This document shows positions 1 to 37,800 of a stretch of DNA of 42,094 nucleotides, in pieces. Both the position numbers and the translations under genes were made by a program. The first letter of the stretch is position 1, and each line of letters opens with the position of its first letter. The notes under the pieces are model-generated. The model searched no databases, was not told the origin of the DNA, and worked only from the letters and a program-made list of their open reading frames with translations. Source of the DNA: Neocallimastix lanati (nom. inval.) (taxonomy: Eukaryota; Neocallimastigomycota; Neocallimastigomycetes; Neocallimastigales; Neocallimastigaceae); assembly GCA_016946835.1 (NCBI GenBank), contig JACVTC010000340.1:1-42094 (forward strand). Direction: 5' to 3'.

Positions 1-442
1 CCCTAACCCCTAACCCCTAACCCCCTAACCCCTAACCCTAACCCTACCCCTAACCCTACCCCTAACCCTACCCTAACCCTACCCATAACCCCCTAACCCT
101 AACCCCCCCTAACCCCTAACCCTAACCCCCTAACCCTAACCCCCTAACCCTAACCCCTAACCCTAACCCTAACCCCTAACCCTAACCCCTAACCCCCTAA
201 CCCCTAACCCCTAACCCCTAACCCCTAACCCCTACCCCTAACCCTAACCCCTAACCCTAACCCCTAACCCTAACCCTAACCCTAACCCTAACCCCTAACC
301 CTAACCCCTAACCCCTAACCCCTAACCCCTAACCCTAACCCCTACCCTAACCCCTAACCCTAACCCCTAACCCCTAACCCTAACCCCTAACCCCTAACCC
401 CTAAACCCTAACCCTAACCCCTAACCCTAACCCCTAACCCCT
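1..442 (+). repeat. terminal telomere repeat array (C-rich strand)
   Basis: Irregular array of CCCTAA and CCCCTAA units with occasional variants such as CCCTACCCC and CCCATAACCCC. The C-rich strand reads 5' to 3' away from the left edge, as expected for a left chromosome end whose G-strand (TTAGGG/TTAGGGG) would form the 3' overhang. It stops abruptly at ...CCCCTAGCG, where element A begins. The mixture of 6- and 7-nt units implies a telomerase RNA template that permits slippage, or divergence of older repeats. Confidence 0.97.
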
Positions 443-869
443 AGCGTTTGTTCTATTGTTTATTGTCATTATTTATTTATTTTTAAATATTGTTTAAAAT
501 AATAGTTTTATAATTATATTGTTTTTATATTTGCATCATCCCTTTGATAAAACAAAATAATAAATAAATTATTTTAAAAACAAATAAATTTTATGAATCC
601 GTTTTTTTATTTTATTTTATTTTATTTTATTAATATAAATAAATTATTTTAAATAAAAGAATAAATCCCTTTGTATTAAAATGTAAATTAAAAGTGGACC
701 TATAATATTTTGTTTTATTTTATAATATTTTGTTTTATTTTTTTAATAATAAAGAAATTTAGAGTATAAATATCTTTTGTTTTTTTTTAAAATATTTTTT
801 CCGTATTAATGAGTATTCGTTTGCAATATTCATTATATCAAAATAAAATAAAATATATTTAAATAATTC

Positions 870-1302
870 GCCCAGAATTCAGGTTTTTTAACCTGTTTTC
901 TGGAATGTCTTTAAACTCTTCCAGTTGACACTTTTGTTAGCTGGACTCTTTTTGATTTAAACTCCGGTTCTCACTTTTGATTACTGGAATGTAATCTCTC
1001 CGGTTTCCTTTTGGAATGATTTTTTGGTTCCTTTTGGTTTTCAGGATTTCTGTTGTCTTGCTGAACTCTCCGGTTTACTCTTTGTTGGTTTGCTGGATTC
1101 TCTTTCGGTTATTCTTCTGGTTACTTGATTGGTTGTTGGATTCTCGTTTGCTTATTCTCCAGGGTACTCCTTTGATTCAGAGTTCTTGTCTTTTAGTTCT
1201 CTTGTCTATTCTTTGGGTTATTCTGGATTCTTTGGATCCCTTTTTTTGGTTCTCGGTTCTCCGACCTTACCTTCTTGGGATGTATTTTCTTTATTCTCTA
1301 TG
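870..1302 (+). other. pyrimidine-rich GC-elevated block in element A
   Basis: The + strand is dominated by T, C and G with few A, and CTCCGGTT, TCTGGA and GGTTATTCT-like words recur. It opens with a nested hairpin (872-903): CCAGAA/TTCTGG, a 2x2 TT/TT internal loop, CAGGTT/AACCTG and a T4 loop. A second hairpin GATTAC/GTAATC lies at 979-996. Small open frames here (95 codons at 1016-1303) translate to runs of L, F, S and V, as expected of T-rich DNA in any frame, so I do not call a gene. It could be a promoter/5' region or a structured transcript segment; no function is shown. Confidence 0.55.
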
Positions 1303-1920
1303 ATTGTTATAATAATTAACAATACTTTTAATTAATTATTATTTATTTAATAATTAATTATTTTATTATTATAATAATCTATTTAATAAACTTATGTATA
1401 ATTGTTATTATTTATATAATAACAATATTTTTTAATCAAAATTGTTTGATTATTATTTCTCATAATAATAATCTTCTATAAAATCATGTATTAATTATTA
1501 TTATTTTCATAATAATAATAATTTTCTATTTTAAAATGTATTATTTATTAACTCATGTATTAATTATTATTTCTCATAATAATTATAAACTCATGTATTA
1601 ATTATTATTTTTATAATAATTATAAACTCATGTATTAATTATTATTTTACAATAATAATTACTTAATATTTAAAGTTATTATTCGCTTGCTATAATTATT
1701 ATTATTTTCTTAATAATAATTCTCTAGAATAGTATAGAATTCTTTGTTACAAATAGAATAGTTTAAAAATCTTAGAATAGATTTTAATATCTAAAATAAA
1801 AATCTTATTTTCTATTATTATTTGTTTAAAATAATAATAGTCGCTAGAATAGTTTAATAATTAAACTTCTTGAAAATCAATAATGATTTTTCTTAAATTA
1901 TATATACATTAATAATGTAT
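1303..1920 (+). other. chain of about 12 A/T hairpins in element A
   Basis: Consecutive inverted repeats with short loops, by eye: 1303-1323 (7 bp), 1329-1360 (12 bp), 1401-1426 (11 bp), 1448-1473 (10 bp), 1493-1523 (13 bp), 1561-1585 (10 bp), 1599-1622 (10 bp), 1636-1661 (11 bp), 1694-1721 (10 bp), 1812-1840 (12 bp), 1872-1891 (7 bp plus a G-U), 1904-1920 (7 bp). Several are separated by the spacer ACTCATGTATT. As RNA this would be a string of stem-loops leading to the telomeric 3' end. Confidence 0.75.
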
Positions 1921-1974
1921 TAACTATTTTGATTAATTTTATTAAATAAAATTATAACGTTTAAAACCTAACCC
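1872..1974 (+). promoter_or_regulatory. conserved 3' terminus of element A (two hairpins plus telomeric tail)
   Basis: Hairpin 1 is AAAATCA/TGATTTT (1873-1879/1884-1890, 4-nt loop). Hairpin 2 is ATACATT/AATGTAT (1904-1910/1914-1920, 3-nt loop). After 38 nt comes GTTTAAAACCTAACCC (1959-1974). The same plan ends the otherwise different E2 element (4765-4866). I infer a 3' recognition structure for reverse transcription, with a tail able to pair with the TTAGGG overhang. Confidence 0.65.
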
Positions 1975-2210
1975 ATTCTTTGTTACAAATAGAATAGTTT
2001 AAAAATCTTAGAATAGATTTTAATATCTAAAATAAAAATCTTATTTTCTATTATTATTTGTTTAAAATAATAATAGTCGCTAGAATAGTTTAATAATTAA
2101 ACTTCTTGAAAATCAATAATGATTTTTCTTAAATTATATATACATTAATAATGTATTAACTATTTTGATTAATTTTATTAAATAAAATTATAACGTTTAA
2201 AACCTAACCC
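1975..2210 (+). mobile_element. 5'-truncated copy of element A (236 bp)
   Basis: Positions 1975-2210 repeat 1739-1974 with no difference that I can see. The copy begins immediately after the CCTAACCC end of the preceding unit and itself ends in the same GTTTAAAACCTAACCC, followed by TAAAT. A left end at an arbitrary internal site and a right end exactly at the family 3' terminus are the usual outcome of incomplete reverse transcription. A tandem duplication by DNA recombination would not need its border to coincide with the telomeric 3' end. The near identity implies recent origin or gene conversion. Confidence 0.75.
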
Positions 2211-2265
2211 TAAATAAAAATATTCTTTATAATTAAATATTCTTATAAATTTTTAATATCTTATA

Positions 2266-4479
2266 ATGCCATCTAAAGGGGAAGAAGTCTTAAGCTACGC
2301 CGGTGTTTACCACTTGTCATTTATTCTTAGTGGTAAAAACCAAAGCGCGGACGGACGCCCTATTCCGATCCGCTGCAGAAGATGCGGGGGAATTTTTACT
2401 AAGACAAGTCATACCCGCCTCTACTGCTCGAACAAACGAAAGAAATGCAACAATAGCTGCACCTTTAGTGCTCTTAAGGCGTATCTTATTGATCTTTATA
2501 ATCATAAGATCGTCTCTCTCAGTAAGGGAAATGATAACATACCTCTTATCCTATTCAAGAATGGGAGACAGGTCATATCTCTCCCCTTCCAAAGTCCTAA
2601 TCCCAAGGACAAAACTAATGAAGACCTCTTCAAACCGGTACCAGTAAAGAAGCTACTCACGATGGTGCCTAGTTTGAGAAACCATTTCTGGTGCAAATAT
2701 GATTATTGTAGACCAGAAATGAACGACAAAGAGGAGATTGATGTAAATCAAACCCTCCTCTCTGCTGAACCTACTACCTCTTCTAACGGTACTACTCTAG
2801 TCATCGCAGCACCTACCCAAGATGCTGCGATGAAAGAAGCTAACTCTGGGGAAGAACTCGTTGGAAAGACCGTCAGTAATCCCATGATTACTGAAGAGCC
2901 TATCTTAAAGCCTGTGATTCCCTCCACAACGAAAGAAGTAGATATCTTAAGCCAAGAAAGGTTATTCAAGAAGCCAGTGACCGAAGGGACTGGTAAAAGA
3001 AAAAATAACCCCTTGGAAGAAGATGAACGAAATCCTAGCATTGAGAGATATCTCTCAAGCTGCCAAAATTCGGCCCCTAAAGAGCTCAATCAGTTCGATT
3101 TAGACGAATTTAATCGTCTTAGAACTGAGAACGCTCATTTAAAAAATTTATGTTATAATAGTAAGATTGAAATTTCCAATCTTACTGAATCAATAAGAAG
3201 CCTAGAAGAGTCTTGGAAAAAGGAGAAAGTTAAACTTTCATCCCAAATTTTCAAGGCTCAGAACAACTCAGTAGCACTTAGTACGGTGCTACAAAATAAG
3301 TCTGAAGCCTCCCCCTCTCGACTTTCTCTTGAAATATTAGAGAAAAAGGAGAGGATCAAAAAAATGATAGAAGAAAAAAAGGGAAAATGTAAGGATATTA
3401 CAGATTCCCTTGAGAAGAATGCCGACCATCTTCCTCCACAGCTTCAACGAATAAGAAGTCAGGAAGATGGCCTCCCCTTAATTCAGGAAAGTATCCTGAG
3501 CCTCATTATGAGGCAACCTAAGATCATCCGAAAGGATGATCTTGACTTAGTATATATTAAAGGCATTCAAAGGCAACCCATCTGGGTTATCAAAAAATGC
3601 CTTAGTAATCTTGGAATACGACATTTTTATATTAAAAATGTCTCGTTCATTGGTAAAGACATTTGCGAACTTACAGTTCTCAAAAGATCCAAACCAATGA
3701 TTATTAACATCCTTAAAGTTTTTGAAAACTCATTCAAAGTTCTCGAAAACTTTAACCCTGTTGCTGTTGACAATGCCTCTACAGCTAATGATGAAGATAT
3801 TCTTAGAGTAGAAAAAGCATGCTACCGAAGAATATCTGAAACTATTAATAGAAAAAGAAGTCCTGATTATATTAAGGACTTCTTTTCTAATGTTATCCAG
3901 AATATTAAATTTACCAAATTTAATATTCCTACGCCTACGCCTACTGCTGTTCCTGATGAAGCTTCTCTTAATGTAGAAGCCTCTACCTCAGGTAATAACT
4001 TCGCTGCTCCTTCTTCGGTTTGTGCCCACGATAATGCTCCAGCTACCATCAATGATGCTCCAGCTAACTCGCCCGGCTCGACCTCGGAAGTAGCTAATGC
4101 TGCCCTCCGCTCTAGTAAAGAAGCCATCTCTGCCTTTGCCCTTGCGCTAAAGGAAAGGGTTGTTAGCCCATCAAAGGGCTTTGCTGCTTTTAAGGCTGCT
4201 AATCCAAGTGGCCCTCTTGAATCCCCAGAGTTCAAAGGTACGTCTGAACTCTTTGAGGATGACAGCCTAAACACGGAGGATGATAATGATTCAATTATCT
4301 CCTCAACGTTAACTCCTACAGTGCCAATTGAGCACTACCATGAAGCCGGGATGGATATGTATAGTGACACTATAATATCCAATTCCCCTAATATTCTCAG
4401 TACAACTATTAATCCATTAAATCCTATGGATTATAGTTCTGAGGATATTATTGAATCTATGAAATATATCAATGAATAA
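2266..4479 (+). CDS. LINE ORF1/Gag-like protein with Zn cluster, coiled coil and RRM-like domain
   Basis: 737 residues; ATG at 2266 is the first after an in-frame TAA at 2254-2256. GC content is far above the flanks. Residues 37-65 hold a Cys cluster (C37, C40, C54, C61, C65, with H49; CX2C-X13-C-X6-C-X3-C), plausibly zinc-binding, with C143 and C148 as a further pair. Residues 165-260 are Ser/Thr/Glu-rich with a basic patch (GKRK, 243-246). About 278-330 and 352-375 are charged heptad-like helices (coiled coil). About 426-488 reads as a beta-alpha-beta-beta-alpha module (LVYIKGI..PIWVIKKCLSNLGI..IKNVSFIG..ICELTVLK..MIINILKVFE), which I compare to the RRM-like module of LINE ORF1 proteins and to ORFs I recall beside reverse transcriptases in early-diverging fungi. 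The C-terminus is Ala/Pro/Ser-rich (555-655), then acidic. Likely role (inferred): RNA-binding particle protein taking element RNA to telomeres. No RT is adjacent. The name is a family-level guess. Confidence 0.75.
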   Translation: MPSKGEEVLSYAGVYHLSFILSGKNQSADGRPIPIRCRRCGGIFTKTSHTRLYCSNKRKKCNNSCTFSALKAYLIDLYNHKIVSLSKGNDNIPLILFKNGRQVISLPFQSPNPKDKTNEDLFKPVPVKKLLTMVPSLRNHFWCKYDYCRPEMNDKEEIDVNQTLLSAEPTTSSNGTTLVIAAPTQDAAMKEANSGEELVGKTVSNPMITEEPILKPVIPSTTKEVDILSQERLFKKPVTEGTGKRKNNPLEEDERNPSIERYLSSCQNSAPKELNQFDLDEFNRLRTENAHLKNLCYNSKIEISNLTESIRSLEESWKKEKVKLSSQIFKAQNNSVALSTVLQNKSEASPSRLSLEILEKKERIKKMIEEKKGKCKDITDSLEKNADHLPPQLQRIRSQEDGLPLIQESILSLIMRQPKIIRKDDLDLVYIKGIQRQPIWVIKKCLSNLGIRHFYIKNVSFIGKDICELTVLKRSKPMIINILKVFENSFKVLENFNPVAVDNASTANDEDILRVEKACYRRISETINRKRSPDYIKDFFSNVIQNIKFTKFNIPTPTPTAVPDEASLNVEASTSGNNFAAPSSVCAHDNAPATINDAPANSPGSTSEVANAALRSSKEAISAFALALKERVVSPSKGFAAFKAANPSGPLESPEFKGTSELFEDDSLNTEDDNDSIISSTLTPTVPIEHYHEAGMDMYSDTIISNSPNILSTTINPLNPMDYSSEDIIESMKYINE

Positions 4480-4491
4480 ATATATTTCATA
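2302..4491 (+). other. chain of strong hairpins spanning the E2 coding sequence
   Basis: Nearly the whole ORF can be read as successive stem-loops. Perfect stems of 9 bp or more: 2306-2314/2329-2337, 2683-2692/2712-2721, 2801-2811/2823-2833, 2873-2881/2886-2894, 3160-3169/3177-3186, 3426-3435/3461-3470, 3520-3529/3534-3543 (GAAA loop), 3620-3628/3634-3642, 3795-3804/3828-3837, 3853-3864/3875-3886, 3900-3912/3916-3928 and 4458-4469/4480-4491. Stems of 11-13 bp with one bulge or internal loop: 2730-2761, 3090-3128, 3314-3354, 3379-3411, 4276-4304, 4352-4381 and 4404-4438. Between them lie shorter ones, for example 3041-3058, 3222-3243, 3271-3292, 3483-3499, 3500-3514, 3560-3603, 3647-3700 and 4227-4252. 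Confidence 0.8.
4458..4491 (+). promoter_or_regulatory. 12-bp hairpin with the E2 stop codon in its loop
   Basis: TATGAAATATAT (4458-4469) pairs perfectly with ATATATTTCATA (4480-4491). The 10-nt loop (4470-4479) holds the last two sense codons and the TAA stop (4477-4479). It could affect termination, mark the end of the translated region, or be one more member of the hairpin chain. No downstream ORF is present to support readthrough or reinitiation. Confidence 0.6.
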
Positions 4492-4764
4492 CGATTTCAG
4501 TTTTAATTAAATATACTTACTTTACGAACAAACTAAAATTTAATTTCTTTATAAATTTTATTTTAAAATATTCTACTAGATTATAAAAACTTTATATTCT
4601 TTTAGATAATTACAAAAATTCTTTTATTAGAATTACTTTTATTATTCATTTACTTTAAAAGAATAATTTTTCTCTTCCTTAAAATTCTAAACTTTATAGA
4701 TATATACTTTTTTTTTACTTTATCGAACTTTTATTTTTTTACTAAAAATGTATTAATTTACTTA
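4492..4764 (+). other. E2 3' untranslated segment, AT-rich
   Basis: Low-complexity AT-rich sequence between the stop-codon hairpin and the conserved 3' terminus. There is no ORF and no poly(A) run that would mark a classical LINE tail. It does not resemble the corresponding region of element A; only the last ~105 nt of the two units are alike. Confidence 0.6.
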
Positions 4765-4869
4765 AAATCATGTAGTCATGATTTCATATAATTTATATAT
4801 ACATTAATTAATGTATTATCTAATCGAATAATTTTAATAAAAATTACAAAGTTTAAAACCTAACCCCCC
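4765..4869 (+). promoter_or_regulatory. conserved 3' terminus of element E2
   Basis: Hairpin 1 is AAATCATG/CATGATTT (4765-4772/4777-4784, loop TAGT). Hairpin 2 is ATACATT/AATGTAT (4799-4805/4810-4816, loop AATT). After 34 nt comes GTTTAAAACCTAACCC (4851-4866), identical to element A, followed by CCC. Hairpin 1 differs in sequence from that of A yet keeps full pairing. Confidence 0.65.
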
Positions 4870-5565: not shown

Positions 5566-5840
5566 TTAATTAACTTTATTCTAATGTAAATTAAAATCTA
5601 AGTAATAATTTAAAATAAATTAAAATCAAATATAAAATATAAAATAAAAAATAAATATAAATATAAAAAATTTTTAAATTTTTAATATTGATTAGTATTA
5701 TTCAAACAACATACTAATCTATTAATAATTATATAATTTAAAATAATTGCAATTAAATATAAAAAAATAAAATATAATTTTATTTGTTTTCTTATATTAA
5801 ATTATATAAATCATCATTTGATATTTCATCATTAATTTTT
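5566..5840. other. AT-rich spacer
   Basis: A/T-rich non-repetitive stretch with no gene seen; second copy at about 32566-32839. It contains TTAGTATTATTCAAACAACA, slightly more complex than its surroundings. Confidence 0.5.
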
Positions 5841-6425
5841 TTTATCATTAATTTATGTTTTTCACATGAAAAATAAATGTTTTTTTACATAAAATTATGT
5901 AAAAATCATATGATAGTTTGTCTTTAATTTATGTTTTTCACATGAAAAATTAATGTTTTTTTACATAAAAATATGTAAAAATCATATGATATTTTGTCAT
6001 TTATTTATGTTTTTCACATGAAAAATTAATGTTTTTTTACATAAAATTATGTAAAAATCATATGATATTTTGTCATTAATTTATGTTTTTCACATGAAAA
6101 ATTAATGTTTTTTTACATAAAATTATGTAAAAATCATATGATATTTTGTCATTAATTTATGTTTTTCACATGAAAAATTAATGTTTTTTTACATAAAATT
6201 ATGTAAAAATCATATGATATTTTGTCATTAATTTATGTTTTCACATGAAAAATTAATGTTTTTTACATAAAATTATGTAAAAATCATATGATAATTTGTC
6301 ATTTATTTATGTTTTCCACATGAAAAATAATGCTTTATTTTCATAAAATTATGTAAAATCATATGCTATTTTGTCATTTATTTATGTTTTCCACATGAAC
6401 TATAAATGATTTTTACATAAAAAAA
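5841..6425. repeat. 76-bp tandem satellite with two palindromes per unit (8 units)
   Basis: About eight units of roughly 76 bp. Each has a TTTTTCACATGAAAAA palindrome and an 11-bp hairpin TTTTTACATAA/TTATGTAAAAA, followed by ATCATATGATATTTTGTCAT. The last units are degenerate. The duplicate at about 32840-33366 has seven units, so a unit was gained or lost after the duplication. Confidence 0.88.
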
Positions 6426-6709
6426 TGAAATTATCATAGGATAATTTATCTTTAATTTATGTTAATCATATTAAAATTAAATAATATTTTAAGAAAAAAT
6501 TGTTTTGATATATTTTTATGTTTAATAAAAATTTATTTATAATATTAAATTTTTAATTTAATGGATTATATCATCCATCAAATAATTTATATATATTCAA
6601 TTAATAGTTATTAATATTTATAAGATTAATTATTTATTATTTTAATTTTTAACTAATAAATTATTTATTTTTTTTTTTTTTTTAATACAATAAAATATTT
6701 TCTTTAAAG
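6426..6709. other. AT-rich spacer with a T run
   Basis: No gene or array seen; includes a T homopolymer near 6668-6683. Second copy at about 33367-33650. Confidence 0.5.
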
Positions 6710-6975
6710 CAATTTCTAATTAAATAAATCAAAATATAAAAAAAATTGTAATATAAAAATATAAAATAAGAAATAAATAAAATAAAATAAAAAATAAATA
6801 AAATAAAAAATAAATAAAATAAAACATAAAAAAGAAATAAAAAATAATATAATAAAAAATAAAATAAAATAAAGAATATAAAAAAAAAATAAAATAAAAA
6901 ATAAAAAAAATAAAATAAAATAAAGAATAAAATAAAGATAAAATAAAATAAAGAATAAAAAAAATAAAATAATTA
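6710..6975 (-). repeat. A-rich AAAAT/AAAATAAAG low-complexity tract
   Basis: Built from AAAATAAAATAAAGAATAAA words. It is the reverse complement in kind of the TTTTATTC array at 7925-12484, and is therefore given minus orientation. Second copy at about 33655-33898. Confidence 0.75.
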
Positions 6976-7475
6976 CTTAAATAAATATTTTAATATATAT
7001 ATTAATGAATATATATTAATTACTTAAATAAATATTTTGATATATATATTAATGAATATTTATTAATTACTTAAATAAATATTTCGATATATATTTTAAT
7101 GAATATATATTAATAATATAAATAAATATTTTAATATCTATTTTAATGAATATATATAAATAATATAAATAAATTATTTATTATATATTTTAATAAATAT
7201 ATATTAATAACATAAATAAATTATTTATTATATATTTTAATGAATATATATTAATAATATAAATAAATTATTTATTATATATTTTAATGAATATATATTA
7301 ATAATATAAATAAATTATTTATTATATATTTTAATGAATATATATTAATAATATAAATAAATTATTTATTATATATTTTAATGAATATATATTAATAATA
7401 TAAATAAATTATTTATTATATATTTTAATGAATATATATTAATAATATAAATAAATATTTTAATATACTAATGAA
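6976..7475 (+). repeat. 47-bp tandem array, forward orientation
   Basis: Unit around AATATATATTAATAATATAA and ATAAATTATTTATTATATAT, period about 47 bp, about ten units. The first units (AAATAAATATTTTGATATAT type) are closest to the reverse complement of the array at 12485-13275. The duplicate (33899-34442) carries one extra unit near 33980-34035. Confidence 0.82.
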
Positions 7476-7924
7476 TATGGAATTATAGTATTTCGAAAAA
7501 TGTGGCTAACTAAATTTTTAATAATTGAATTAATAAATAAGCAGTTTTAATAAATAATGTTAAATTAGTATTAAAGTTTTTTTTTTTTTTTTTTTTTTTT
7601 TTTCTTATTTATTTTTATTTTAAAAAAAAATAAATAAATAAATATAAAATAAAATATTCAATAAAAATATTTAAATAATAAAATATATATATATTCTTAT
7701 ATTTAAAAATTAAAAAAGTCTTAAAAATATTTGTATTTAAAAAAAGTACCTATACCTAAAAAAAAAAAATATTCTTAATAATAAAAAAAAAATGATACTT
7801 TAAAATAAACTTCAAATAAAATATTATTTAAAAGAATAAAATATTATTTAAAAAAAATTATTCTTTTAAATAAAAAAAGTATTGCTAAAAATAATATATT
7901 CCTTAAAAAAAAAATAGTCATTAA
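7476..7924. other. AT-rich spacer with GTGGCT motif and T run
   Basis: Contains CGAAAAATGTGGCTAAC (about 7494-7510), a member of the dispersed GCCACATT motif family, then a T homopolymer at about 7579-7602 and A-rich sequence. No gene is visible. Duplicate at about 34443-34895. Confidence 0.6.
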
Positions 7925-10900
7925 ATGTTTTTATTTTTCGTTTTATTTTTTATTTTATTTTTTTTTATTCTTTATTTTATTTTATTTATTTTATTTCTTT
8001 TTTATTTTATTCTTTATTTTATTTTATTTTATTTTATTTTATTTTTTATTTTATTTTATTTTATTTTATTTTATTTTTTATTTTATTTTATTTTATTTTA
8101 TTTTTTATTTTATTTTATTCTTTATTTTATTCTTTATTTTATTTTATTTTATTTTATTTTTTATTTTATTTTATTTTATTTTATTTTTTATTTTATTTTA
8201 TTTTATTTTATTCTTTATTTTATTTTATTTCTTTTTTATTTTATTCTTTATTTTATTTTATTTTATTCTTTATTTTATTTTATTTTATTCTTTATTTTAT
8301 TTTATTCTATTCTTTATTTTATTTTATTTATCTTTATTTTATTCTTTATTTTATTTTATTCTATTCTTATTTCTTTTTTATTTTATTCTTTATTTTATTT
8401 TATTTTATTTTATTTTATTTTTTATTTTATTTTATTTTATTTTATTTTATTTTTTATTTTATTTTATTCTTTATTTTATTTTTTATTTTATTTTATTTTA
8501 TTTTATTTTTTATTTTATTTTATTTTATTTTATTTTATTTTTTATTTTATTTTATTCTTTATTTTATTCTTTATTTTATTTTATTTTATTTTATTTTTTA
8601 TTTTATTTTATTTTATTTTATTTTTATTTTATTTTATTTTATTTTATTTTTTATTTTATTTTATTTTATTTTATTCTTTATTTTATTTTATTTTATTTTA
8701 TTTTATTTTATTTAATTTTATTCTTTATTTTATTTTATTTTATTCTTTATTTTATTTTATTCTATTCTTTATTTTATTTTATTTATCTTTATTTTATTCT
8801 TTATTTTATTTTATTCTATTCTTATTTCTTTTTTATTTTATTCTTTATTTTATTTTATTTTATTTTATTTTATTTTTTATTTTATTTTATTTTATTTTAT
8901 TTTTTATTTTATTTTATTTTATTTTTTATTTTATTTTATTTCTTTTTTATTTTATTCTTTATTTTATTTTATTTTATTCTTTATTTTATTTTATTTTATT
9001 CTTTATTTTATTTTATTTTATTCTTTATTTTATTTTATTTTATTCTTTATTTTATTTTATTTTATTCTTTATTTTATTTTATTCTATTCTTTATTTTATT
9101 TTATTTATCTTTGTTTTATTCTTTATTTTATTTTATTCTATTCTTTATTTTATTTTATTTATCTTTGTTTTATTCTTTATTTTATTTTATTCTATTCTTT
9201 ATTTTATTTTATTTATCTTTGTTTTATTCTTTATTTTATTTTATTCTATTCTTTATTTTATTTTATTTATCTTTATTTTATTCTTTATGTTTTATTTTAT
9301 TTTTTTTTATTTTATTTTTTATTTATTTTTTAATGATATATTTTATTTCTTTATATTTTATTTATTCTTTATTTTATTTTATTCTATTCTTTATTTTATT
9401 TTATTTATCTTTATTTTATTCTTTATTTTATTTTATTTTATTCTTTATTTTATTTTATTTATTTTATTTTATTTATCTTTATTTTATTTTATTTATCTTT
9501 ATTTTATTCTTTATGTTTTATTTTATTCTTTATGTTTTATTTTATTCTATTCTTTATTTTATTTTTTATTTATTTTTTATGATATATTTTATTTCTTTAT
9601 ATTTTATTTTTTATGTTTTATTTTATTTCTTTTTTATTTTATTTTAATTTTTATTTTATTCTTTATTTTATTTTATTTATCTTTATTTTATTCTTTATGT
9701 TTTATTTTATTTTTTTTTATTTTATTTTTTATTTATTTTTTATGATATATTTTATTTCTTTATATTTTATTTATTCTTTATTTTATTTTATTCTATTCTT
9801 TATTTTATTTTATTTATCTTTATTTTATTCTTTATTTTATTTTATTTTATTCTTTATTTTATTTTATTTATTTTATTTTATTTATCTTTATTTTATTTTT
9901 TTTATTTATTTTCTTTATATTTTATTCTTTATTTTATTTATCTTTTTTTTATTCTTTATGTTTTATTTTATTTTTTTTTTATTTTATTTTTTTTGATTTA
10001 TTTTATTCTTTATTATATTTTTTTTGATTTATTTTATTCTTTATTATATTTTATTTTGATTTATTTTATTCTTTATTTTATTTTATTTTGATTTATTTTT
10101 TATTTTATTTTATTTTATTTTATTTTATTTTATTTTATTTTATTTTATTTTATTTTATTTTATTTTATTTTATTTTATTTTATTTTATTTTATTTTATTC
10201 TTTATGTTTTATTTTATTTTTTTTTATTCTTTATGTTTTATTTTATTTTTTTTATTTATTTTCTTTATATTTTATTCTTTATTTTATTTTATTCTATTCT
10301 TTATTTTATTTTATTTATCTTTATTTTATTCTTTATGTTTTATTTTATTTTTTTTTTTATTTTATTTTTTTTGATTTATTTTATTCTTTATTATATTTTA
10401 TTTTGATTTATTTTATTCCTTATTATATTTTATTTTATTCTTTATTTTATTTTATTCTTTATGTTTTATTTTATTTTTTTTTATTCTTTATGTTTTATTT
10501 TATTTTTTTTATTCTTTATGTTTTATTTTATTTTTTTTATTCTTTATGTTTTATTTTATTTTTTTTTATTCTTTATGTTTTATTTTATTTTTTTTTTATT
10601 CTTTATGTTTTATTTTATTTTTTTTATTTATTTTCTTTATATTTTATTCTTTATTTTATTTTATTCTATTCTTTATTTTATTTTATTTATCTTTATTTTA
10701 TTCTTTATGTTTTATTTTTTTTTTTTTTTATTTTTTATTTATTTTTTATGTTTTATTTTATTTCTTTATATTTTATTATTTATTTTATTTTATTCTATTC
10801 TTTATTTTATTTTATTTTATTTTATTTTATTTCTCTTTTATTCTTTATTTTTTTTTATTTTATTCTTTATTTTTTTTTATATCTTTTTTATTTTATTCTT

Positions 10901-12484
10901 TATTTTTTTTTATATCTTTTTTATTTTATTCTTTATTTTATTTTATTTTATTTTTTATTTTATTTTATTTTGATTTATTTTATTCTTTATTATATTTTAT
11001 TTTGATTTATTTTATTCTTTATTTTATTTTATTTTGATTTATTTTTTATTTTATTTTATTTTATTTTATTTTATTTTATTTTATTTTATTTTATTTTATT
11101 TTATTTTATTTTATTCTTTATTTTATTTTATTTTATTTTATTCTTTATTTTATTTTATTTTATTTTATTCTTTATTTTATTTTATTTTATTTTATTCTTT
11201 ATTTTATTTTATTTTATTTTATTCTTTATTTTATTTTATTTTATTTTTTATTTTATTTTATTTTGATTTATTTTATTCTTTATTATATTTTATTTTGATT
11301 TATTTTATTCTTTATTTTATTTTATTTTGATTTATTTTTTATTTTATTTTATTTTATTTTATTTTATTTTATTTTATTTTATTCTATATTTTATTTTATT
11401 TTATTTTATTCTTTATTTTATTTTATTTTATTTTATTCTTTATTTTATTTTATTTTATTTTATTCTTTATTTTATTTTATTTTATTTTATTCTTTATGTT
11501 TTATTTTATTTTATTTTATTCTTTATGTTTTATTTTATTTTATTCTTTATGTTTTATTTTATTTTATTCTTTATTTTATTTTATTCTTTATGTTTTATTT
11601 TATTTTATTCTTTATTTTATTTTATTCTTTATGTTTTATTTTATTTTATTCTTTATGTTTTATTTTATTTTATTCTTTATGTTTTATTTTATTTTTTTTA
11701 TTTTATTTTTTATTTATTTTTTATGTTTTATTTTATTTTATATTTCATTATTTATTTTATTTTATTCAATTCTTTATTTTATTTTATTTTAATTTTTTAT
11801 TTCATTCAATTCTTTATTTTGATTTATTTTAATTTTTTATTTTATTTTATTCTTTATTTTGATTTATTTTATTCTTTATTTTATTTTATTTCTTTTTTAT
11901 TCTTTATTTTATTTTATTTCTTTTTTATTCTTTATTTTATTTTATTTTATTCTTTATGTTTTATTTTATTTTAATTTTTTATTTTATTTTATTCTTTATT
12001 TTTTTTTTATTTCTTTTTTATTTTATTTTTTATTTTATTTTATTTTATTTTTATTTTATTTTATTTTATTTTATTTTTATTTTATTTCTTTTTATTCTTT
12101 ATTTTATTTTATTTTATTTCTTTTTTATTTTATTTTATTTTATTTTATTTTTATTTTATTCTTTATTTTATTCTTTATTTTATTCTTTATTTTATTTTAT
12201 GTTGGTTTGATTTATTTTATTCTTTATTTTATTTTATTTTTTATTTTATTTTATTCTTTATTTTATTCTTTATTTTATTTTATGTTATTTTGATTTATTT
12301 TATTCTTTATTTTTATTTTATTCTTTATTTTTATTTTATTCTTTATTTTATTTTATTTTTTATTTTATTCTTTATTTTATTCTTTATTTTATTTTATTTT
12401 TTTTATTTTATTTTTTTTCTCTTTATTATATTTTATCTTTATTTTATTCTTTATTTTATTTTATCTTTATTTTATTCTTTATTT
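7925..12484 (+). repeat. giant TTTTA/TTTTATTC simple array (about 4.56 kb)
   Basis: Almost entirely TTTTA pentamers with interspersed TTCTTTA, TTATCTTTA, TTTGATTTA and TTATGTTTTA variants, T-rich on the + strand throughout. TTTTA has no stop in any + frame (it reads F-Y-F-I-L), so very long spurious frames arise, up to 606 codons; I do not regard them as genes. Higher-order blocks, such as a repeated 65-70 bp group with TTATCTTTGTTTTATTC near 9100-9260, show local amplification. The duplicate at 34896-39390 is about 60 bp shorter and differs in block number. Confidence 0.95.
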
Positions 12485-13275
12485 AAATATTCATTAATAT
12501 ATATATCAAAATATTTATTTAATTAATTAATATATATTCATTAATATATATATCAAAATATTTATTTAATTAATTATTATATTTTCATTAATATATATAT
12601 CAAAATATTTATTTAATTATTTATTATATATTCACTAATATATATATCAAAATATTTATTTAATTAATTATTATATTTTCATTAATATATATATCAAAAT
12701 ATTTATTTAATTATTTATTATATATTCACTAATATATATATCAAATTATTTATTCAATTATTTATTATATATTCACTAATATATATATCAAAATATTTAT
12801 TTAATTATTTATTATATATTCACTAATATATATATCAAAATATTTATTTAAATAATTATTATATACATTTAAATAAATATCAAAATATTTATTTAAATAA
12901 TTATTATATACATTTAAATATATATCAAAATATTTATTTAATTATTTATTATATATTCACTAATATATATATCAAAATATTTATTTAATTAATTATTATA
13001 TATTCACTAATATATATATCAAAATATTTATTTATATAATTATTATATATTCACTAATATATATATCAAAATATTTATTTAAATAATTATTATATACATT
13101 TAAATATATATCAAAATATTTATTTAATTAGTTATTATAAATTCATTAATATATATATCAAAATATTTATTTAAATAATTATTATATATACATTTATATA
13201 TATAACAAAATATTTATTTAATTAATTAATATATATTCATTTAAATATATATCAAAATATTTATTTAAATAGTTA
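12485..13275 (-). repeat. 47-bp tandem array, inverted orientation
   Basis: Unit around TATTCACTAATATATATATC and AAAATATTTATTTAATTATT, period about 47 bp, about 16 units. Its reverse complement matches the units starting the array at 6976, so the same satellite family lies in opposite orientations on the two sides of the TTTTA array. The duplicate at about 39391-40190 has a partly different set of units. Confidence 0.82.
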
Positions 13276-13284
13276 AAATATATT

Positions 13285-13287
<3 letters not shown>

Positions 13288-13323
<36 letters not shown>

Positions 13324-13335
13324 TAAAATATATTT

Positions 13336-13368
<33 letters not shown>

Positions 13369-13370
13369 AT
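13288..13370. repeat. paired A homopolymers
   Basis: Two A runs of roughly 30 nt separated by GATAAAATATATTTATTT. Duplicate at about 40196-40279. Confidence 0.85.
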
Positions 13371-14446
13371 AATTCCTAAATATAATATATGATAAAACTA
13401 TATAAATGCAAATCTTTCATTATTTTAAATGTTAAAAAAAATAAAAACCCCTAAATATGAATGCTTAAATAATCATCCCTAAAAGAATTTAATACATCTA
13501 TATCAATTGAAGAAAATAAAATTTAAGATGAAACGGCAAAAAGTTCAATTCTTTTCAGTATAAACTTAAACATATATTTAATAAAGTATCACAAAAAAAA
13601 TGGGATTTATGCAAGTAATTCGAATATAGTACATTTCACAATAATTTGATTTGTAATGTGGCTTAAATATTTAAAAAAATAAAGCCATACATTTTTAAGA
13701 TATTCTATATAATCATAAATAAATATAAAAATAATTACTATTTCAAAAGAAATATTAAAAATTATTTTTTATAAAAACTTATTTTTACAATGGAATATTA
13801 ATAAATTATATATAAAAAAGAAAAAAGAATACTTATTATTTATTATATTATTAAAAAAATAGTAAAATACAAAAATACGCCACATTGCGAAATGCACTAT
13901 CCTCAATTAAATCATAAATAACAAAAAAAAAAAAAAATAAGTAAATAAACTTTCTTATGATGTAAACAATGTTTGATGATACTGGAAGAACTAAGAAATG
14001 ATAATATTAAATGATAGTTTAAATATTTAATTAAATTAAGTAATGAAAATACCAATTTATAATAAATTACAGGTTAATTATCAAACGAAAAGAATTATCT
14101 GAATTCTGTCACAATTGTTTTATTAACCTTAAATAATTAATAAACATTTAAAGAAAATTTATTTTAAAACTTTTATTTATATTTCTGAAGAATATTTAAG
14201 GAATATTTTTTTTTATAATTAAAAGATATATAACCTTTTTAAGTTTTAAATATAACTTTAAAGATATTTATAAGGATTTTTAAAATTTAAATATAATTAA
14301 TTTTTTATATTTTAAATATATATATAAACCTTTTTAAATTTTATATATAAATATATATTTTTTATTTAAAATATTTTTTATTGATTTATATTTTTTTTTA
14401 TATAACTATTTTTTAAAATAAATAAATAATAATAATAGAAATAAAA

Positions 14447-14450
<4 letters not shown>
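13371..14450. other. AT-rich spacer of somewhat higher complexity
   Basis: No ORF of note. It holds AATGTGGCTTAAATATTT (about 13655) and CGCCACATTGCGAAATGCAC (about 13870-13889), both of the GCCACATT family. A patch at 13955-14015 (TGATGTAAACAATGTTTGAT and following) and GAATTATCTGAATTCTGTCA (about 14082) are less repetitive than their surroundings. The duplicate (40280-41370) preserves these with few changes. No RNA gene could be established. Confidence 0.5.
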
Positions 14451-14479
<29 letters not shown>

Positions 14480-14514
14480 AAAAGAAATAAAAATTAAATA
14501 ATAATAAATAAATA

Positions 14515-28340: not shown

Positions 28341-29874
28341 AGCGTTTGTTCTATTGTTTATTGTCATTATTTATTTATTTTTAAATATTGTTTAAAATAA
28401 TAGTTTTATAATTATATTGTTTTTATATTTGCATCATCCCTTTGATAAAACAAAATAATAAATAAATTATTTTAAAAACAAATAAATTTTTATGAATCCG
28501 TTTTTTTATTTTATTTTATTTTATTAATATAAATAAATTATTTTAAATAAAAGAATAAATCCCTTTGTATTAAAATGTAAATTAAAAGTGGACCTATAAT
28601 ATTTTGTTTTATTTTATAATATTTTGTTTTATTTTTTTAATAATAAAGAAATTTAGAGTATAAATATCTTTTGTTTTTTTTTAAAATATTTTTTCCGTAT
28701 TAATGAGTATTCGTTTGCAATATTCATTATATCAAAATAAAATAAAATATATTTAAATAATTCGCCCAGAATTCAGGTTTTTTAACCTGTTTTCTGGAAT
28801 GTCTTTAAACTCTTCCAGTTGACACTTTTGTTAGCTGGACTCTTTTTGATTTAAACTCCGGTTCTCACTTTTGATTACTGGAATGTAATCTCTCCGGTTT
28901 CCTTTTGGAATGATTTTTTGGTTCCTTTTGGTTTTCAGGATTTCTGTTGTCTTGCTGAACTCTCCGGTTTACTCTTTGTTGGTTTGCTGGATTCTCTTTC
29001 GGTTATTCTTCTGGTTACTTGATTGGTTGTTGGATTCTCGTTTGCTTATTCTCCAGGGTACTCCTTTGATTCAGAGTTCTTGTCTTTTAGTTCTCTTGTC
29101 TATTCTTTGGGTTATTCTGGATTCTTTGGATCCCTTTTTTTGGTTCTCGGTTCTCCGACCTTACCTTCTTGGGATGTATTTTCTTTATTCTCTATGATTG
29201 TTATAATAATTAACAATACTTTTAATTAATTATTATTTATTTAATAATTAATTATTTTATTATTATAATAATCTATTTAATAAACTTATGTATAATTGTT
29301 ATTATTTATATAATAACAATATTTTTTAATCAAAATTGTTTGATTATTATTTCTCATAATAATAATCTTCTATAAAATCATGTATTAATTATTATTATTT
29401 TCATAATAATAATAATTTTCTATTTTAAAATGTATTATTTATTAACTCATGTATTAATTATTATTTCTCATAATAATTATAAACTCATGTATTAATTATT
29501 ATTTTTATAATAATATTAATTCTTAAAGATTGTATTAATTATTATTTTACAATAATAATTACTTAATATTTAAAGTTATTATTCGCTTGCTATAATTATT
29601 ATTATTTTCTTAATAATAATTCTCTAGAATAGTATAGAATTCTTTGTTACAAATAGAATAGTTTAAAAATCTTAGAATAGATTTTAATATCTAAAATAAA
29701 AATCTTATTTTCTATTATTATTTGTTTAAAATAATAATAGTCGCTAGAATAGTTTAATAATTAAACTTCTTGAAAATCAATAATGATTTTTCTTAAATTA
29801 TATATACATTAATAATGTATTAACTATTTTGATTAATTTTATTAAATAAAATTATAACGTTTAAAACCTAACCC
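28341..29874 (+). mobile_element. telomere-linked element A, copy 2 (A')
   Basis: Matches 443-1974 end to end: same start (AGCGTTTG), same pyrimidine-rich block, same hairpin chain and same 16-mer end (29859-29874). By eye the differences are a 5-nt TTTTA unit and one T near the left, plus one replaced patch (10 nt at 1621-1630 versus 16 nt at 29515-29530). Its 3' end runs directly into the interstitial telomere array. Its left flank is AT-rich DNA, not telomere. Confidence 0.8.
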
Positions 29875-30105
29875 TAACCCCTAACCCCCCTAACCCCTAC
29901 CCCTAACCCCTAACCCCTAACCCCTAACCCCTAACCCCCCTCCCTAACCCCTAACCCCTAACCCCTAACCCCTAACCCTAACCCCTAACCCCTAACCCCT
30001 AACCCTAACCCTAACCCTAACCCTAACCCCTAACCCCTAACCCTAACCCCTAACCCCTAACCCCTAACCCCTAACCCCTAACCCCTAACCCTAACCCTAA
30101 CCCCT
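29867..30105 (+). repeat. interstitial telomere array
   Basis: About 239 bp of CCCTAA/CCCCTAA with a few C-rich irregularities (CCCCCCTAAC, CCCCCCTCCC), in the same orientation as the terminal telomere. It begins inside the CCTAACCC end of A' and ends at CCCCTTATCACGTGATTT. Orientation indicates a former left chromosome end now buried, not a head-to-head fusion. Confidence 0.95.
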
Positions 30106-31867: not shown

Positions 31868-34800
31868 CAAATAAAATAAATATTTTTAATAATTTTAAAA
31901 TTTAATTGTTCATATCATTTATAATATAATTTAAATTTTTATTAATAAAATAATAGCTGTATTTATATACTATCATTGAGATTAAGTAAATTATTATTTA
32001 AAAATTGTAATATTTTATTTAAAATTTAATATATTGCAAATAATATTTATTATCAATATAATTATATATACTTCACAATATAATATATAATTAATTATTA
32101 AAATATAAATTTAAATTTTATTTAAAAATTATATTTTAATTAAAAATGTGAATTTTAATAATATTATATATATATTTTATTTATTATTTAATCATTATCA
32201 AATTAAAAATATAAATAATAATGATATATTATTTATTATTTAATAATTATTTAATTAAAAATAAAAATTTCTCTAATATCATAGTAAATTTTATTAATTA
32301 TTTAATCATTATTAAATAATAAAATTTTATTAATATTATAATTATATGTTATTAATTATTTAATCATTATAAAAGTAAAAATATAAATTTTATAATATCA
32401 TAATTATATGTTATTAATTATTTAATCATTATAAAATTAAAAATATAAATTTTATAATATCATAATTATATGTTATAAATTATTTAATCATTATAAAATT
32501 AAAAATATAAATTTTATAATATCATAATTATATGTTATTAATTATTTAATCATTATAAATTTAATTAATTAACTTTATTCTAATGTAAATTAAAATCTAA
32601 GTAATAATTTAAAATAAATTAAAATCTAATATAAAATATAAAATAAAAAATAAATATAAATATAAAAAATTTTTAAATTTTTAATATTGATTAGTATTAT
32701 TCAAACAACATACTAATCTATTAATAATTATATAATTTAAAATAATTGCAATTAAATATAAAAAAATAAAATATAATTTTATTTGTTTTCTTATATTAAA
32801 TTATATAAATCATCATTTGATATTTCATCATTAATTTTTTTTATCATTAATTTATGTTTTTCACATGAAAAATAAATGTTTTTTTACATAAAATTATGTA
32901 AAAATCATATGATAGTTTGTCTTTAATTTATGTTTTTCACATGAAAAATTAATGTTTTTTTACATAAAAATATGTAAAAATCATATGATATTTTGTCATT
33001 TATTTATGTTTTTCACATGAAAAATTAATGTTTTTTTACATAAAATTATGTAAAAATCATATGATATTTTGTCATTAATTTATGTTTTTCACATGAAAAA
33101 TTAATGTTTTTTTACATAAAATTATGTAAAAATCATATGATATTTTGTCATTAATTTATGTTTTTCACATGAAAAATTAATGTTTTTTACATAAAATTAT
33201 GTAAAAATCATATGATAATTTGTCATTTATTTATGTTTTCCACATGAAAAATAATGCTTTATTTTCATAAAATTATGTAAAATCATATGCTATTTTGTCA
33301 TTTATTTATGTTTTCCACATGAACTATAAATGATTTTTACATAAAAAAATGAAATTATCATAGGATAATTTATCTTTAATTTATGTTAATCATATTAAAA
33401 TTAAATAATATTTTAAGAAAAAATTGTTTTGATATATTTTTATGTTTAATAAAAATTTATTTATAATATTAAATTTTTAATTTAATGGATTATATCATCC
33501 ATCAAATAATTTATATATATTCAATTAATAGTTATTAATATTTATAAGATTAATTATTTATTATTTTAATTTTTAACTAATAAATTATTTATTTTTTTTT
33601 TTTTTTTAATACAATAAAATATTTTCTTTAAAGCAATTTCTAATTAAATAAATCAAAATATAAAAAAAATTGTAATATAAAAATATAAAATAAAAAATAA
33701 ATAAAATAAAATAAAAAATAAATAAAATAAAAAATAAATAAAATAAAACATAAAAAAGAAATAAAAAATAATATAATAAAAAATAAAATAAAATAAAGAA
33801 TATAAAAAAAAAATAAAATAAAAAATAAAAAAAATAAAATAAAATAAAGAATAAAATAAAGATAAAATAAAATAAAGAATAAAAAAAATAAAATAATTAC
33901 TTAAATAAATATTTTAATATATATATTAATGAATATATATTAATTACTTAAATAAATATTTTGATATATATATTAATGAATATTTACTAATTACTTAAAT
34001 AAATATTTTGATATATATATTAATGAATATTTATTAATTACTTAAATAAATATTTCGATATATATTTTAATGAATATATATTAATAATATAAATAAATAT
34101 TTTAATATCTATTTTAATGAATATATATAAATAATATAAATAAATTATTTATTATATATTTTAATAAATATATATTAATAACATAAATAAATTATTTATT
34201 ATATATTTTAATGAATATATATTAATAATATAAATAAATTATTTATTATATATTTTAATGAATATATATTAATAATATAAATAAATTATTTATTATATAT
34301 TTTAATGAATATATATTAATAATATAAATAAATTATTTATTATATATTTTAATGAATATATATTAATAATATAAATAAATTATTTATTATATATTTTAAT
34401 GAATATATATTAATAATATAAATAAATATTTTAATATACTAATGAATATGGAATTATAGTATTTCGAAAAATGTGGCTAACTAAATTTTTAATAATTGAA
34501 TTAATAAATAAGCAGTTTTAATAAATAATGTTAAATTAGTATTAAAGTTTTTTTTTTTTTTTTTTTTTTTTTTTCTTATTTATTTTTATTTTAAAAAAAA
34601 ATAAATAAATAAATATAAAATAAAATATTCAATAAAAATATTTAAATAATAAAATATATATATATTCTTATATTTAAAAATTAAAAAAGTCTTAAAAATA
34701 TTTGTATTTAAAAAAAGTACCTATACCTAAAAAAAAAAAATATTCTTAATAATAAAAAAAAAATGATACTTTAAAATAAACTTCAAATAAAATATTATTT

Positions 34801-34895
34801 AAAAGAATAAAATATTATTTAAAAAAAATTATTCTTTTAAATAAAAAAAGTATTGCTAAAAATAATATATTCCTTAAAAAAAAAATAGTCATTAA

Positions 34896-37800
34896 ATGTT
34901 TTTATTTTTCGTTTTATTTTTTATTTTATTTTTTTTTATTCTTTATTTTATTTTATTTATTTTATTTCTTTTTTATTTTATTCTTTATTTTATTTTATTT
35001 TATTTTATTTTATTTTTTATTTTATTTTATTTTATTTTATTTTATTTTTTATTTTATTTTATTTTATTTTATTTTTTATTTTATTTTATTCTTTATTTTA
35101 TTCTTTATTTTATTTTATTTTATTTTATTTTTTATTTTATTTTATTTTATTTTATTTTTTATTTTATTTTATTTTATTTTATTCTTTATTTTATTTTATT
35201 TCTTTTTTATTTTATTCTTTATTTTATTTTATTTTATTCTTTATTTTATTTTATTTTATTCTTTATTTTATTTTATTCTATTCTTTATTTTATTTTATTT
35301 ATCTTTATTTTATTCTTTATTTTATTTTATTCTATTCTTATTTCTTTTTTATTTTATTCTTTATTTTATTTTATTTTATTTTATTTTATTTTTTATTTTA
35401 TTTTATTTTATTTTATTTTATTTTTTATTTTATTTTATTCTTTATTTTATTTTTTATTTTATTTTATTCTTTATTTTATTCTTTATTTTATTTTATTTTA
35501 TTTTATTTTTTATTTTATTTTATTTTATTTTATTTTTTATTTTATTTTATTTTATTTTATTTTTTATTTTATTTTATTTTATTTTATTCTTTATTTTATT
35601 TTATTTTATTTTATTTTATTTTATTTAATTTTATTCTTTATTTTATTTTATTTTATTCTTTATTTTATTTTATTCTATTCTTTATTTTATTTTATTTATC
35701 TTTATTTTATTCTTTATTTTATTTTATTCTATTCTTATTTCTTTTTTATTTTATTCTTTATTTTATTTTATTTTATTTTATTTTATTTTTTATTTTATTT
35801 TATTTTATTTTATTTTTTATTTTATTTTATTTTATTTTTTATTTTATTTTATTTCTTTTTTATTTTATTCTTTATTTTATTTTATTTTATTCTTTATTTT
35901 ATTTTATTTTATTCTTTATTTTATTTTATTTTATTCTTTATTTTATTTTATTTTATTCTTTATTTTATTTTATTTTATTCTTTATTTTATTTTATTCTAT
36001 TCTTTATTTTATTTTATTTATCTTTGTTTTATTCTTTATTTTATTTTATTCTATTCTTTATTTTATTTTATTTATCTTTGTTTTATTCTTTATTTTATTT
36101 TATTCTATTCTTTATTTTATTTTATTTATCTTTGTTTTATTCTTTATTTTATTTTATTCTATTCTTTATTTTATTTTATTTATCTTTATTTTATTCTTTA
36201 TGTTTTATTTTATTTTTTTTTATTTTATTTTTTATTTATTTTTTAATGATATATTTTATTTCTTTATATTTTATTTATTCTTTATTTTATTTTATTCTAT
36301 TCTTTATTTTATTTTATTTATCTTTATTTTATTCTTTATTTTATTTTATTTTATTCTTTATTTTATTTTATTTATTTTATTTTATTTATCTTTATTTTAT
36401 TTTATTTATCTTTATTTTATTCTTTATGTTTTATTTTATTCTTTATGTTTTATTTTATTCTATTCTTTATTTTATTTTTTATTTATTTTTTATGATATAT
36501 TTTATTTCTTTATATTTTATTTTTTATGTTTTATTTTATTTCTTTTTTATTTTATTTTAATTTTTATTTTATTCTTTATTTTATTTTATTTATCTTTATT
36601 TTATTCTTTATGTTTTATTTTATTTTTTTTTATTTTATTTTTTATTTATTTTTTATGATATATTTTATTTCTTTATATTTTATTTATTCTTTATTTTATT
36701 TTATTCTATTCTTTATTTTATTTTATTTATCTTTATTTTATTCTTTATTTTATTTTATTTTATTCTTTATTTTATTTTATTTATTTTATTTTATTTATCT
36801 TTATTTTATTTTTTTTATTTATTTTCTTTATATTTTATTCTTTATTTTATTTATCTTTTTTTTATTCTTTATGTTTTATTTTATTTTTTTTTTATTTTAT
36901 TTTTTTTGATTTATTTTATTCTTTATTATATTTTTTTTGATTTATTTTATTCTTTATTATATTTTATTTTGATTTATTTTATTCTTTATTTTATTTTATT
37001 TTGATTTATTTTTTATTTTATTTTATTTTATTTTATTTTATTTTATTTTATTTTATTTTATTTTATTTTATTTTATTTTATTTTATTTTATTTTATTTTA
37101 TTTTATTTTATTTTATTCTTTATGTTTTATTTTATTTTTTTTTATTCTTTATGTTTTATTTTATTTTTTTTATTTATTTTCTTTATATTTTATTCTTTAT
37201 TTTATTTTATTCTATTCTTTATTTTATTTTATTTATCTTTATTTTATTCTTTATGTTTTATTTTATTTTTTTTTTATTTTATTTTTTTTGATTTATTTTA
37301 TTCTTTATTATATTTTATTTTGATTTATTTTATTCCTTATTATATTTTATTTTATTCTTTATTTTATTTTATTCTTTATGTTTTATTTTATTTTTTTTTA
37401 TTCTTTATGTTTTATTTTATTTTTTTTATTCTTTATGTTTTATTTTATTTTTTTTATTCTTTATGTTTTATTTTATTTTTTTTTATTCTTTATGTTTTAT
37501 TTTATTTTTTTTTTTATTCTTTATGTTTTATTTTATTTTTTTTATTTATTTTCTTTATATTTTATTCTTTATTTTATTTTATTCTATTCTTTATTTTATT
37601 TTATTTATCTTTATTTTATTCTTTATGTTTTATTTTTTTTTTTTTTTATTTTTTATTTATTTTTTATGTTTTATTTTATTTCTTTATATTTTATTATTTA
37701 TTTTATTTAATTCTATTCTTTATTTTATTTTATTTTATTTTATTTTATTTCTCTTTTATTCTTTATTTTATTTTATTTTATTCTTTATTTTTTTTTATTT

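Follow-up and report, generated by a model that had tools for sequence, protein, structure and literature searches.

The coding sequence of a gag-like telomeric gene in Neocallimastix lanati is maintained as a chain of short hairpins

HeT-A is a telomeric element with a gag gene and no reverse transcriptase (RT) of its own, which forms head-to-tail arrays at chromosome ends and whose Gag protein carries CCHC zinc knuckles, and the Penelope-like telomeric elements Athena and Coprina, which encode an RT, attach through RNA ends complementary to the telomere. An RT is also encoded by MoTeR1. Outside of retroelements, a genome-scale ordered RNA structure is known from some RNA viruses, with dense short-range pairing across the coding sequence that is kept at synonymous sites. 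In the parts of the published accounts available to us, the FoTeRs form fungal telomeric arrays and are classed as non-LTR (long terminal repeat) retrotransposons, and the MoTeRs are arrayed at fungal telomeres, their copies separated by short telomeric tracts (PMC8381367); the same part of the MoTeR account holds nothing on coding-sequence structure. Likewise, as far as the available part of the report goes, the telomeric gag genes of Drosophila are under selection for G-quadruplexes, with DNA more conserved than protein and quadruplex motifs that do not lie on the sense transcript, and the same bias of DNA over protein conservation occurs in other long interspersed nuclear elements (LINEs) (PMC10088271). 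Here, we describe a multicopy element with a gag-like open reading frame (ORF) next to a telomere of the fungus Neocallimastix lanati, in the 42,094-nucleotide contig JACVTC010000340.1, which we call the window and which was analyzed as a whole. The coding sequence of this ORF is under a second constraint that preserves dense local Watson–Crick self-pairing, and this is a product of evolution and not of chance.

Counting perfect Watson–Crick stems with loops of 3–25 nt, we found 15 stems of at least 8 bp in the ORF, 12 of at least 9 bp, and 10 of at least 10 bp, the last group spanning 10–13 bp, and an additional 12-bp stem lies at 4458–4491 with the stop codon in its loop, which places the nine stems of 10–13 bp given in an earlier note on this DNA within one or two of the count. 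The respective means for these three lengths were 0.87, 0.21, and 0.04 in 300 dinucleotide shuffles (maxima 6, 2, and 1), and 1.8, 0.71, and 0.32 in 300 synonymous-codon shuffles (maxima 6, 4, and 2), with up to 3 stems of at least 10 bp in smaller synonymous-shuffle runs (n = 100 and n = 60). With the base-pair span limited to 100 nt, the ORF folds at −635.5 kcal/mol, against −424 ± 12.7 in the synonymous shuffles (z −16.6, n = 40) and −409.5 ± 14 in the dinucleotide shuffles (z −16.2, n = 30). Codon- and dinucleotide-preserving shuffles, the check that the earlier note had proposed, thus reach neither the observed stems nor the observed energy, and the very large excess over chance that it had estimated is borne out.

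This folding is local and is bounded by the ORF. The excess of stems of at least 6 bp is limited to loops of up to about 40 nt, with loops of 41–200 nt at or below the shuffles (n = 10), and 45 of the 53 top-level domains predicted for the element fall within the chain given in Table 1, 42 of them with a single hairpin loop and 32 with a predicted free energy of −10 kcal/mol or lower, close to the 29 or so strong hairpins previously claimed. The chain starts 33 nt into the ORF and stops 21 nt beyond the stop codon, with only a weak predicted stem over the start codon (−2.2), and neither the first 150 nt (z −0.5) nor the 3′ untranslated region (UTR) folds beyond chance. Segments of 150 nt with z below −2 make up 21 of 28 in the ORF and 0 of 3 in the UTR, and 19 of 28 and 0 of 3 in L018, an intact relative in the same genome. 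Two details of the earlier description did not hold: the chain is uneven instead of regularly spaced, with a gap at about 3936–4235, and once-interrupted stems (a single mismatch with at least 4 bp on each side) show no excess in the window copy (4 observed against an expectation of 3.6) and only a small one in L018 (6 vs. 3.2). Two other kinds of structure were also considered. A G-quadruplex code as in HeT-A is rejected, there being no quadruplex motif in the ORF, and a long hairpin of the Dicer type, acting as a trigger in the manner of double-stranded RNA, is unlikely since the longest perfect stem has only 13 bp.

The genome is very AT-rich, the AT-rich repeats of the window hold many inverted repeats, and one chaperonin piece (L054) reached z −3.5, all of which could speak for chance, for composition, or for a trait shared by N. 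lanati genes across the genome; nevertheless, we give such an origin practically no likelihood, because the two types of shuffles and the host genes both stand against it. Stem counts matched the shuffles in all 13 RT ORFs, many of which are near-identical, and in 5 of 6 chaperonin ORFs, these being the controls counted out of 20 RT and 10 chaperonin loci after dropping duplicate test segments and frames shorter than 600 nt. In the exception, the chaperonin L058, the six stems fall within a TA-rich segment, presumably intronic, at the 3′ terminus of the frame. Whole-ORF energies against synonymous shuffles were obtained for four sequences and the other controls are pieces of up to 1,200 nt, with z from −1.5 to +0.3 in five RT pieces and from −3.5 to +1.6 in six chaperonin pieces; the GC content at third positions is 0.36 in the gag-like ORF and 0.11–0.24 in the controls. 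A genome-wide hairpin habit is therefore rejected, and the ordinary genes counted here, a comparison that the earlier note had suggested, lack a comparable excess. The intact relatives L018 (z −12.6) and L020 (z −14.9) are folded as well.

Maintenance of the pairing was measured between the window copy and L018, with differences in 17% of the aligned bases and in 23% of the residues (protein identity of 77%). When the same codon changes were placed at random on the window ORF, in 40 simulations per direction, an energy of −418 ± 13 kcal/mol was expected and L018 has −583; in the reverse direction, from L018 to the window copy, the values were −432 ± 16 expected and −615 observed. The two folds, with totals of 636 and 622 base pairs, share 359 pairs, against 162 ± 31 expected. 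Older decayed copies (L024, L025, L026, and L029) retain much of the structure (z −2.3 to −12.3). In the recently dead copy L015, which has one stop codon and lacks its 5′ part, 20 substitutions (5, 9, and 6 at the three codon positions) have eroded the fold no differently from randomly placed ones (z +1.2, and z +1.1 in a second test, the reverse direction of which gave −5.8), and six other near-identical copies have one change (four copies) or none (two copies) and are hence uninformative. Stem-site conservation was measured in copies other than those defining the stems: at stems defined in the window copy, third-position conservation between L018 and L026 is 0.879 vs. 0.701, and a circular-shift test gave 0 of 728 for three copy pairs and 56 of 728 for L026–L029. 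Unpaired codons have a synonymous divergence (dS) of 0.58, compared with 0.32 for fully paired ones. Compensatory changes, pooled over the decayed copies, occur in 14 of 20 cases, against 19 of 62 with the stems slid (the cells are not independent), and in 9 of 17 against 36 of 150 with L018 as reference, above the slid stems in both cases, which the intact pair taken alone is not clearly (see below).

A mutational origin, by which template switching of the element's reverse transcriptase would perfect quasi-palindromes, had also been offered in that note. It would account for stems that are strikingly perfect, with few single-mismatch stems in excess, and the random erosion of the dead copy is also expected from it if only live copies undergo reverse transcription. 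However, of the 30 clusters in which the window copy differs from L018 at four or more positions, 29 are not contained in any perfect stem with its partner arm within 60 nt, the whole cluster being required to fall within the stem, and the remaining one is inside a trivial 4-bp stem; the clusters are thus not templated by the opposite arm. Moreover, stem sites are conserved, third positions included, and not turned over (although only the 359 pairs mentioned are shared), and no excess of structure is seen in the 3′ UTR, a stretch that the same reverse transcriptase would also copy. We consider this origin very improbable.

The element itself is a 2,656-bp unit, both ends of which are common to other copies, with one ORF and no second one of at least 150 aa. 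The unit terminates on its 3′ side in CCTAACCC, a telomeric C-strand sequence. In the 199 Mb and 762 contigs searched, the end GTTTAAAACCTAACCC has 107 exact matches, against 0 for the reversed control pattern; the published N. lanati genome, in the part of its account available to us, is a PacBio assembly of 200.97 Mbp in 970 contigs (PMC8561657). The contigs searched also gave at least 150 matches to the fungal dockerin, in keeping with this phylum. Tallying the orientation of 100 listed places out of these 107, 22 of the 23 contigs with at least two listed 3′ ends are uniform and one (C1) is mixed, and many of the 3′ ends fall on short contigs or close to the end of a contig. The window has four 3′ ends, all on the plus strand with the telomere at the left, an arrangement also found in L003, and head-to-tail junctions are present between units. 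The end motif or a telomeric tract was found in 10 of the 13 loci examined, L031–L033 being without it; these three form a distant telomere-associated family (L031 823–3213, L032 2023–4440 on the minus strand, and L033 1127–3517) with intact frames of about 800 aa, long asparagine tracts, and 32% identity to parts of the gag-like ORF. At the protein level, the ORF has at least 76 matches in the genome, with at least 14 full-length open copies at about 100% identity, including the one in the window, and at least three open copies at 76–77% protein identity. In summary, a multicopy element with fixed ends, a telomeric C-strand 3′ end, and one orientation in its arrays is directly supported.

The ratio of nonsynonymous to synonymous divergence (dN/dS) of 0.31 against L018 shows purifying selection on the protein and makes the ORF very likely a working protein gene. 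No Pfam family matches the protein at the cut-off; by eye or in matches below the cut-off, it has an N-terminal cysteine cluster and a coiled-coil-like center. Among the roughly 8,000 best-sharing candidates scored, which yielded 7 proteins in one search and 9 in the other, homologues were limited to N. lanati, N. californiae, two unnamed ENA proteins (100% and 75% identity), and one metagenome protein (30%), and no homology to HeT-A Gag or its CCHC zinc knuckles was found either there or at the Pfam cut-off. The annotated N. lanati proteins have 57–91% identity to the ORF in local alignments, and three public gene models (P0002, P0003, and P0006) are shorter, with 679, 643, and 611 aa compared with 737, presumably from predicted introns or decayed copies. 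No RT-like ORF was found in the element or in the window, whose other 11 listed ORFs are translations of AT repeats, and the LINE ORF1 label of the earlier note stays unproven, with no RT-bearing ORF2 downstream, no Pfam match, and few homologues. Three neighboring stretches hold no ORF of at least 120 aa with GC above 0.2, one repeat excepted, and the stretches read upstream of other 3′ ends hold AT-rich noncoding DNA only, with no RT-bearing relatives. In a search for a partner RT with RVT_1, none of the 150 candidates scored out of 5,028 first-look ones was linked to the telomeric elements; many of the matches are near-identical, the longest frames reaching about 1,340 aa, and may by our own reading be an LTR-type family. 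Nine pattern matches in viral contigs included no relative of the element.

These data are explained best, in our opinion and with about even confidence, by a telomere-homing retroelement of N. lanati that has a gag-like ORF only and whose hairpins serve the coding RNA. The arrangement of the units is the outcome expected from reverse transcription onto chromosome ends, a step to which the ends and the junctions point. The 3′ end of the RNA, CCUAACCC, would pair with the G-rich overhang of the chromosome end, and an RT acting in trans would extend that end by copying the element RNA. For the telomerase RNA-binding domain, the genome yields a weak match in two pieces, barely above the family cut-off, and the element would probably be a guest at chromosome ends kept by telomerase. 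From the fold we infer a function: the hairpins would make the coding RNA a compact string of short helices, with perfect stems of no more than 13 bp, and this compaction could aid packing with its own Gag, and could also prevent degradation or annealing to antisense telomeric transcripts. A more daring version, which we regard as a long shot, is a dual code in which the protein gene is at the same time a near-continuous scaffold of short perfect hairpins on both strands, folding as RNA and as single-stranded DNA at the chromosome end, where it would be shielded from double-stranded RNA sensing and from end-damage responses while a borrowed RT, possibly telomerase, adds the element to the telomere.

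Several observations weigh against the telomere-homing element with hairpins serving its coding RNA. Some 3′ ends are far inside long contigs, some adjoin non-telomeric DNA, and the RNA of the element and its transcription are predicted from the DNA sequence. The contrast of live and dead copies is that of one dead copy, L015. The intact pair taken alone, unlike the pooled copies, has compensatory changes not clearly above those of slid stems (4 of 9 vs. 11 of 35, and 3 of 6 vs. 15 of 54 the other way). The relatives within the genome keep their stems, as the earlier note would have it, but the distant telomeric relative has no excess of them (5 vs. 4.2) and a weak energy signal (z −4.9). G–U pairs in the fold number 31, against 57 ± 5.5 in shuffles (n = 24), and are depleted on both strands, and single-sided changes in stems of at least 5 bp lead to G–U in 34 cases and to A–C in 47 (34 and 43 the other way). 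The antisense fold is kept nearly as well as the sense fold (z −7.9 and −11.9 vs. −9.4 and −14.2). A constraint on the sense RNA alone predicts neither the depletion of G–U pairs nor the near-symmetry of the strands; selection on that RNA only would tolerate G–U, and therefore, Watson–Crick self-pairing is what is kept. Of the explanation by selection for a compact, locally folded RNA in the earlier note, the selection for local folding is supported, and the sense RNA is one candidate for the folded molecule, beside antisense RNA and single-stranded DNA.

The constraint could instead act on both strands or on the DNA, through single-stranded cDNA at the chromosome end, subtelomeric cruciforms, or a structured antisense telomeric RNA. 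The symmetry of the strands favors such a constraint, the strongest maintenance scores are those of a fold without G–U pairs (z −9.6 and −16.2), changes to G–U are no commoner than those to A–C, and the Drosophila quadruplex motifs are likewise off the sense transcript in the available part of their report (PMC10088271). On the other hand, the folding ends at the boundaries of the ORF, which favors RNA, with the 3′ UTR of the same strand unfolded, and the sense strand scores slightly better in 6 of 6 comparisons, and we find this alternative rather unlikely. A role in translation, with hairpins that would pace the ribosomes or hold translation back in favor of packaging the RNA, fits a structure that matches the coding sequence, leaves the start codon nearly free, and terminates shortly beyond the stop codon; it does not predict the G–U depletion or the strand near-symmetry, and appears improbable to us.

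From the chromosome tip inward, the window has telomeric repeats, a noncoding module, a 236-bp duplicate of the latter, and the ORF element (Table 1), all units in the same orientation with their 3′ ends inward, a placement relative to the telomere that is known for the window and L003. Other copies of the noncoding module extend further upstream, and therefore, position 443 is a junction with the telomeric repeats and not a proven 5′ end. Copies of the module are at 443–1974 and 28341–29874 of the window and in L064 (822–2355), L065 (3906–5439, reverse), and L066 (5639–7172), and AT hairpins stand in a row at 1310–1740. The middle parts of the module fold better in sense (z −5.5 and −6.7) than in antisense (z −2.9 and −4.7), and the module is perhaps a noncoding partner mobilized by the machinery of the gag element. 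No known RNA family was found in the window at the gathering score.

Table 1. Positions of the telomeric units, the gag-like ORF, and its hairpins in the window
Feature	Positions	Strand	Basis
Terminal telomeric repeats, CCCTAA and CCCCTAA variants, chromosome end	1..440	.	sequence and tandem-repeat scan
Noncoding telomeric module, shares the 3′ end GTTTAAAACCTAACCC, folded (z −8.2)	443..1974	+	
Exact duplicate of the noncoding module's 3′-terminal 236 bp (100% identity), ends with CCTAACCC	1975..2210	+	
Element with a single ORF	2211..4866	+	ends shared with other copies
Gag-like ORF of 737 aa, coding sequence a hairpin chain	2266..4479	+	
Chain of 45 predicted hairpin domains	2299..4500	+	
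Example hairpin, perfect 10-bp stem, unchanged in L018	3426..3470	+	
Example hairpin, compensatory T–A / C–G pair difference, L026 with the intermediate T–G state	3620..3642	+	
Two neighboring hairpins, perfect 12- and 13-bp stems, five other copies differing at no more than 2 pairs each	3849..3928	+	
Hairpin enclosing the stop codon, perfect 12-bp stem	4451..4500	+	
3′ UTR, no folding beyond chance (z −0.7), ends with GTTTAAAACCTAACCC	4480..4866	+	

Elsewhere in the window, a subtelomeric block is present twice, at about 5917–14500 and 32840–41413, with 97.9% identity, and an internal telomeric array lies between the two copies near 29863–30105. A 76-bp tandem repeat with 8.3 copies (5840–6463) has inverted repeats in each copy, for example ACATAA..TTATGT, and is possibly another hairpin chain, in this case noncoding. 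At 7948–12484, a 4.5-kb satellite of the TTTTA type with skewed strand composition yields spurious long ORFs.

Cellular genes usually show weak selection on the secondary structure of their coding sequences. In this element, such selection is very strong and extends over the greater part of a 2.2-kb ORF, and the live and decayed copies within one genome allow it to be measured; whether the structure serves packaging, evasion of antisense RNA, or the chromosome end in its single-stranded form also becomes testable. Judged by titles and the openings of abstracts, with subscription journals thinly covered and absence therefore unproven, the literature describes neither this element nor any hairpin-coded gag, and by the same titles and openings, no case links genome-scale ordered RNA structure with retrotransposons. 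The element shares with the ordered RNA viruses a dense short-range pairing over the coding sequence, and differs from them as a cellular retroelement with ORF-limited folding and depleted G–U pairs. Its array arrangement resembles that of the MoTeRs in the available part of their account, and telomere-complementary RNA ends at chromosome ends, as proposed here, would be a likeness to Athena and Coprina; in contrast to MoTeR1 and the FoTeRs, the Neocallimastix element encodes no RT, and unlike in Athena and Coprina, none was found in it. With the HeT-A/HTT elements, it has in common the location at chromosome ends, the gag-only content, the arrays, and a DNA identity (83%) above the protein identity (77%), but it has hairpins and no quadruplexes, its host has a match to a telomerase domain, and no protein homology was found. 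The precedent is thus a telomeric gag with a coding sequence selected for structure through G-quadruplexes, and what is new here is the hairpins, in a second case of a telomeric retroelement gag gene that may double as a structural nucleic acid.

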